From an uncultured bacterium (GTDB lineage: Bacteria; Verrucomicrobiota; Kiritimatiellia; CAIKKV01; CAITUY01): a DNA stretch of 64,000 nucleotides. Where the stretch lies: positions 1 to 64,000 of the forward strand of contig CAITUY010000160.1 of assembly GCA_903895695.1 (NCBI GenBank), given 5' to 3'. Position 1 is the first letter of the stretch, and the number at the start of each line of letters is the position of its first letter. A program made the position numbers and the translations under genes. Positions 21,108-21,921 of the stretch are shown here, one piece after another. The notes beneath the pieces were generated by a model. The model worked only from the letters and a program-made list of their open reading frames with translations. It did not search any database and was not told where the DNA came from.

Positions 21108-21278
21108 GATTGCCGCGCGATCTGTCGGGCGCCGATCTCATCAAAGCGCTTCGCGCTCTTGGATACGAGGTGACGCGGCAGAAGGGTCCCCATGTACGCG
21201 TCACCACCGCCCGAGACGGCGAACACCATGACGGCCCACACCCCCCTCAGAGCCGGTGCCCTAAACCTCGTTTGCTGA
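21104..21278 (+). pseudogene. hicA: hicA toxin, frameshifted and truncated
   Basis: The first 42 or so codons encode a normal HicA double-stranded-RNA-binding-like fold: L-P-R-D-L-S-G-A-D-L-I-K-A-L, G-Y-E-V-T-R-Q-K-G and the catalytic His in P-H-V-R-V. After D-G-E-H-H the conserved continuation appears in the next frame, starting at 21231 (T-A-H-T-P-L-R-A-G-A-L-N-L-V-C, stop at 21276-21278). So there is an indel at about 21230, and the C-terminal helix is replaced by the junction with the nitroreductase gene. Toxin activity is unlikely. Confidence 0.7.
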
Positions 21279-21651
21279 CCAGTACGTCCTCCAGCCGCCG
21301 CTTAGGCACGTGGTGAACCCCATCTGGCGTGCGGTAGTATCGCGGATCGCTGCCCGGCAGCAACTCCTCAAGGACGACCGTTTCCGCCGGACGGCCCAAG
21401 GCGACGACCAGATGAACGGCCCACTCCTGCGGGATCTCAAGCACACGGTGAATCTCATCGCGCTTGATCGCGCCCATCATGCAGGCGCCATAGCCGAGTT
21501 CAGCCGCTGCCAGTTGGATGGTTTGCGCCGCAATACCGATGTCCGTCAGCGGCGCCTGGGGTCTGTCTGCGGCGGCGAGAATAGCCACAAAACCCGTGGG
21601 CCGCTCGCCAGGCCTGGGTCCACCCCACTCCTTCAGCATCGCCGCCCATGC
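21247..21651 (-). pseudogene. Nitroreductase-family protein lacking its N-terminal half
   Basis: The conserved part covers the middle and C-terminal segments of a nitroreductase (FMN-dependent NAD(P)H oxidase fold). It includes A-A-M-L-K-E-W, T-D-I-G-I-A-A-Q-T-I-Q-L-A-A, L-G-Y-G-A-C-M-M-G-A-I and L-V-V-A-L-G-R-P-A-E-T. The family normally begins with about 60-70 residues containing the R-R-S-x-R-x-F FMN-phosphate motif; these are absent. The open frame continues to 21792 only by reading through a palindromic element. The 3' end meets the broken hicA. A short translated product is possible but is unlikely to bind FMN. Confidence 0.75.
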
Positions 21652-21763
21652 GACTTTGGACCCCGGCGACCTTGCGTCGCCGGTGAACCCGACTGGCTGG
21701 AAAAGCTGGCTTTTCCAGCCAGTCGTCCGTCCCTGCCGCGCAAGGCGGCAGGTGACTAGAGTC
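21652..21763. repeat. Symmetric three-hairpin palindromic element (REP/MITE-like)
   Basis: Three perfect hairpins share one dyad axis at 21707/21708. The left one has 8-bp arms (21663-21670, 21676-21683) with loop CTTGC. The central one has 16-bp arms (21691-21706, 21709-21724) with a 2-base loop. The right one has 8-bp arms (21732-21739, 21745-21752) with loop GCAAG. Both spacers are 7 bases. The left and right hairpins are inverted relatives whose differences are compensated in the stems. It sits exactly where the nitroreductase loses homology. Confidence 0.75.
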
Positions 21764-21921
21764 ATGACGAGAATTCCTGACCAGCCGAACAAGGGACTTG
21801 CACCGCATCTGCAACTCGCCCATTATGAAACCTTGTTAGGGTGGTGGCTATTCGGCGCCCGTTGCGAAGTCATCGAAAGCACACCTCGGTCGCGCGGCAT
21901 AGAACTATAAGGAACTGGCAA

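Follow-up and report, generated by a model that had tools for sequence, protein, structure and literature searches.

The element examined here lies in a 64,000-nucleotide stretch of DNA (the window), and we judge it very likely, with a probability of roughly 0.86, to be a truncated copy of a non-autonomous MITE. In its intact form, this MITE consists of a TIR, a central palindrome flanked by a pair of inverted REP-like hairpins, and an inverted TIR, and its insertion leaves a 9-bp target duplication; an ISNCY-type DDE transposase would move it in trans. This reading is based on the 19-bp TIR, the 9-bp duplications, and the occurrence of the same TIR on an IS and at homologous transposases.

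The initial annotation described three perfect hairpins on one dyad with equal 7-base spacers, the outer two being inverted copies with loops CTTGC and GCAAG, and both descriptions were reproduced (Table 1). The common dyad of all three hairpins lies at 21707/21708, and the outer arms are complementary at 71% over 55 nt. The single-strand fold of 21640-21775 reached -46.8 kcal/mol, compared with -23.0 +/- 2.6 for shuffled sequences (z = -9.15, 0/200). The element extends further to the right than first reported, as far as the end of the right TIR; its bounds are the positions beyond which near-identical copies elsewhere diverge.

Table 1. Features of the element in the window, of the related IS, and of homologous transposases
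Feature	Position	Strand	Remarks
C-terminal half of nitroreductase gene	21247..21654	-	Broken at the element's left edge
Truncated miniature inverted-repeat element	21652..21779	+	Left TIR missing, right TIR present
Left outer hairpin, 8/5/8, CCGGCGAC-CTTGC-GTCGCCGG	21663..21683	+	Perfect; 98% of cells paired in 19 copies
Left spacer, TGAACCC, 7 bases	21684..21690	+	
Central palindrome, 16/2/16	21691..21724	+	Perfect
Right spacer, GTCCGTC, 7 bases	21725..21731	+	
Right outer hairpin, 8/5/8, CCTGCCGC-GCAAG-GCGGCAGG	21732..21752	+	Inverted relative of the left one; stem invariant in 19 copies
Right TIR, CAGGAATTCTCGTCATGAC (consensus CAGCAATTCTCATTATGGC)	21761..21779	-	3 mismatches, 0.00 expected by chance; same TIR at intact copies
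IS in genome G151, apparently complete, 2589 bp	L361:639-3227		Same TIR at both ends
DruA-like (PF14236) gene of this IS	L361:788-1663		
DDE ORF of this IS	L361:1660-2997		Pfam match only below cut-off
Gloeothece PCC 7822 transposase, WP_013335080.1			Annotated ISNCY; same TIR
Calothrix sp. PCC 7716 transposase, BDA76395.1			TIR CAGCAATTCTCATTTT; perfect 9-bp duplication GAAATATAC
Methylomagnum transposase			TIR CAGCAATTCTCATTTTGGC; perfect 9-bp duplication GAATTCTTG

The ends of the family were defined from intact copies, which are ~144 bp long, carry 19-bp TIRs (CAGCAATTCTCATTATGGC), and are flanked by 9-bp target duplications. Copies such as L050 run past the hairpins into CAGCAATTCTCATTATGG...CCATAATGAGAATTGCTG, with CAAACTGAC flanking both sides. 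Among the eight TIR-complete copies of the three-hairpin family, six had 8-9 of 9 flanking bases duplicated (L050 9, L099 4, L102 8, L105 9, L107 8, L136 8, L143 9, L166 5). Matches to the TIR pattern were common in the genomes concerned, and reversed-pattern controls gave 0-1. Flanking 9-mers were identical at 8/9 or more positions in 26 of 57 distinct short elements bounded by this TIR, and shuffled pairings gave none; the signal lay at 9 bp, with a few copies shifted by one base.

The proposal of a mobile REP/MITE-like family, originally made from the window alone, is borne out by the distribution of its copies. BLAST with the element detected four copies in its own genome that were 96-100% identical (window copy included) and sat at unrelated places, as well as six more at 78-88%; the left TIR of the four is poor or missing. 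Because the element recurs there at E values down to about 1e-48, it is far from a chance pattern. A covariance model (R1), built from 19 copies, recovered ten full doublets in this genome, along with a series of shortened or related ones. Relatives were present in genomes of the same order and, at E <= 1e-6, in at least 43 of the 288 class genomes; with few candidates scored per genome, this count is a minimum. In a pattern scan of genome contigs, public records with the exact core pattern came only from the PVC group or uncultured MAGs. The copies have unrelated flanks, occur in both orientations, and lack coding capacity; since the element is near-symmetric, many of them match the model on both strands.

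Several related arrangements were also observed. A shorter doublet of about 73 nt, without the long central palindrome and with CGTC-like ends, is likewise repeated in the own genome (L087, L088, L092, L093, L095, L096, L097), and on G024:C395 the doublet is repeated in tandem about every 120 nt (L042, L048). In three different genomes, the loop of an outer hairpin contains an inserted repeat of at least about 33 nt (resembling ATGCCACGGCGTAGCTCTTGAGCGAAGCCGGGC) (L005 and L009 in the own genome, L143, L174, L175).

Multiple copies with varied yet paired stems were found, as the initial annotation anticipated; it further suggested that folding is selected. In alignment A1, 92% of cells pair, compared with 39-52% when the partners are slid. 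Both-sided changes occur at 12 of the 16 pairs of the central helix across the 19 copies; the outer stems hardly vary, and one pair of the left hairpin occurs as C-G, G-C, and A-U types. This covariation supports pairing. The central helix is fully paired in the near-identical own-genome copies, at 12-15 of 15-16 positions in the more diverged ones, and at only 8-9 of 16 in some copies from other genomes. Stems have decayed in the more diverged copies, so it is not obvious that selection for folding acts on each resident copy. Our reading is that pairing would matter at the point where a source copy gives rise to a new subfamily and that it then decays; the hairpin interior may be important during the movement of source copies and not at each resting site. 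The same covariation could arise without selection if the palindrome arms were repaired by template switching during replication.

The nitroreductase gene was reported to lose its N-terminal half precisely at the element, and the domain match agrees with this. The minus-strand ORF 21247-21792 matched only positions 87-167 of the 167 in PF00881, at about 21391-21612, and its first ~46 residues derive from the element and its flank instead of the enzyme, with the gene and element joining at about 21652-21654. The surviving half abuts the left side of the element, where the TIR is gone; on the other side, where the N-terminal half would be expected, lie the right TIR and unrelated DNA. It had been proposed that the element either inserted or mediated a deletion. 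Because the left TIR is absent, plain insertion is insufficient and a deletion must have come after it; for the same reason, the site shows no readable target duplication. The break is therefore best read as a two-step event, in which a MITE copy would have landed in or upstream of the gene and a later deletion would have removed the left TIR together with the N-terminal half.

To identify a candidate mobilizer, we examined longer elements with the same TIR. Eight contigs of the relative G014 end 139-141 bases into such an element. The flanks of C125/C334 and C279/C36 are reverse-complementary over 9 bases (AGTACTGCG and CATGGCGGA), which is the pattern that a single insertion with a 9-bp duplication would leave on its two sides. 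A homologous end in G009 encodes the start of a protein with full-length relatives in PF14236 (DruA). With this N-terminal DruA-like fragment as query, Pfam and NCBIfam returned nothing useful and a plasmid search gave no match; full proteins as queries gave informative matches. An apparently complete IS (L361) carries the TIR at both ends and a DruA-like gene upstream of a DDE ORF, with no target duplication readable at this locus. L369 and L362 hold homologues of this gene pair, each preceded by a matching TIR, the DDE gene of L362 being broken.

Plasmid-borne transposases of Gloeothece, Calothrix, and Methylomagnum share 42-46% identity with the DDE protein, and residues D126, D218, and E343 are invariant across four homologues. 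The TIR of these homologues (CAGCAATTCTCATTTT) was recovered by an unguided inverted-repeat search. Because the Calothrix element (L382:2174-4038) holds the transposase gene alone, it is the DDE protein, not the DruA-like one, that goes with the TIR. The common ends and the 9-base duplications point to a DDE transposase family of related and unrelated bacteria as the mover, and, judging from these sequences, an ISNCY-type DDE transposase probably moves the MITE in trans. In the own genome, searched with the DruA-like partner as query, there was no match and no intact autonomous copy was found; MAG assemblies lose multi-copy IS bodies. PF01609 transposases were also considered as partners in 18 genomes, and none of the loci examined bears the TIR.

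DruA is otherwise known from Druantia defence. DruA-like (PF14236, DUF4338) genes were observed here as parts of several kinds of IS (L361:788-1663, L377:1922-4204, L363, L364, L365, L366, L367, L371, L373), either next to an ISNCY-type DDE gene, as a fusion with a Tn5-like transposase (PF14706, PF02281, PF01609), or adjacent to ORFs with IS66-like motifs. The literature searched described neither this family of TIRs nor DruA-like genes as parts of IS.

The interiors of the 57 short TIR-bounded elements cluster into about 16 groups, one of which is the three-hairpin family. The other interiors are different, often REP-like palindromes, some of them containing hairpins tagged with GTAG (GTAGTTCACGCTTTAGCGTG, GTAGTACCTGCTTCAGCAGG) or TGTCATTCCGAG repeats. 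The own genome also has short TIR-bounded elements with unrelated palindromic interiors (L167, G000:C193:19394-19537, and L168, starting at G000:C199:10795), one of which shows a perfect 9-bp duplication (GCTGCTTCT). The TIR-bounded element at L279, L280, L277, and L282 of G009 contains a further palindromic repeat (TGTAGTGTCC...GGACACTACA), nested at CTAG, which L274, L278, and L285 lack, so that the two sets form a pair of filled and empty sites. On viral contigs, there were five matches to the TIR pattern, none of which was MITE- or IS-like on inspection.

REPINs, or REP dimers, are moved by RAYTs (PMC3116915, PMC3733652), and the inverted pair of short hairpins in the window, with stems of 8 and loops of 5, resembles them. 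A REPIN would be a pair of inverted REPs whose movement as single-stranded DNA depends on a hairpin-recognizing RAYT, a Y1 HUH transposase. Besides the hairpin pair, this origin is favored by five Y1_Tnp genes in the own genome, three of them of RAYT-like length, by TIR-less copies in several genomes, and by the lack of a clear left TIR in the four youngest own-genome copies. However, TIRs and 9-bp duplications are not products of RAYTs, which counts against this origin where copies are bounded by the TIR, none of the five Y1 genes is flanked by a copy, and no RAYT homologue adjoins any copy among 384 loci; in the loci examined, the Y1_Tnp genes of the own genome were the only RAYT homologues. 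The GTAG/GGAG tag is also absent next to the outer hairpins. A RAYT, which the initial annotation proposed to look for, is not the likely mobilizer, a DDE transposase sharing the TIR having been found, and we regard a REPIN as very unlikely. The CGTC REP superfamily, for which no transposase was reported, is defined by a CGTC/TGTC/CCTC tag, AT at the first stem positions, and a CCA tail (PMC3733652). It likewise has stems of 8, loops of 5, and inverted dimers, and several copies of our family have a CGTC-like stretch beside the right hairpin. In our family, however, the tag-like bases are on one side only, with the left hairpin untagged, and the stems begin with CC and not A-T, so that by these features the family is not a strict CGTC REP; a CCA tail is not established.

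Even less probable, in our assessment, is a conserved structured RNA or regulatory hairpin, such as a terminator or mRNA stabilizer, in place of mobile DNA. Strong folding and covariation would fit such an RNA, but an Rfam search of nine loci gave only a chance-level match outside the element, and the unrelated flanks, both orientations, target duplications, near-symmetry with matches on both strands, and broken stems of less similar copies all argue against it. A secondary role of the hairpin at individual sites is possible. A different question is where the doublet came from, and here there is close to an even chance that it is an older, independent REP-like family captured into TIR-bounded elements, with the DDE transposase moving the captured copies only. 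This concerns origin and is compatible with the MITE explanation. TIR-less doublets occur in G034, G072, G086, G104, and G202; copies of this kind in other families of the class leave room for such an older unit, and the range of palindromic interiors bounded by the one TIR, some with GTAG-tagged hairpins, also fits it, although decay or replacement of the TIR could look the same.

As a MITE, the family resembles the bacterial NEMIS/Correia, RUP, and ERIC elements: its members are multi-copy, small, non-coding, and TIR-bounded, duplicate their target, and are expected to be mobilized in trans by a related IS, the TIR being shared by intact copies, L361, and the IS ends in G014. Unlike in those elements, a long covarying palindrome sits between the two REP-like hairpins of the interior, and palindromic interiors of many unrelated kinds are found within the one TIR. 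Compared with the ISNCY-type IS of Gloeothece and Calothrix, which share the TIR and a related transposase (with the 9-bp duplication in Calothrix and Methylomagnum), the PVC version has a DruA-like gene in addition, located upstream of the transposase, and the element in the window is gene-free.

The 2013 REP survey left open whether REPs without a dedicated transposase use other transposases (PMC3733652). REP-like pairs inside DDE-type ends with 9-bp duplications bear on this question, which becomes directly testable because a candidate transposase with the same ends can be named. The single TIR links an orphan IS type (ISNCY) across Cyanobacteria, a gammaproteobacterium, and PVC bacteria, and DruA-like genes emerge as IS components. 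We tentatively propose, at somewhat under even odds, that in this PVC class unrelated REP-like palindrome pairs may serve as interchangeable interiors of the miniature elements of one DDE family, providing a second, non-RAYT route of dispersal, and that a palindromic interior may be favored because pairing aids transposition or survival.
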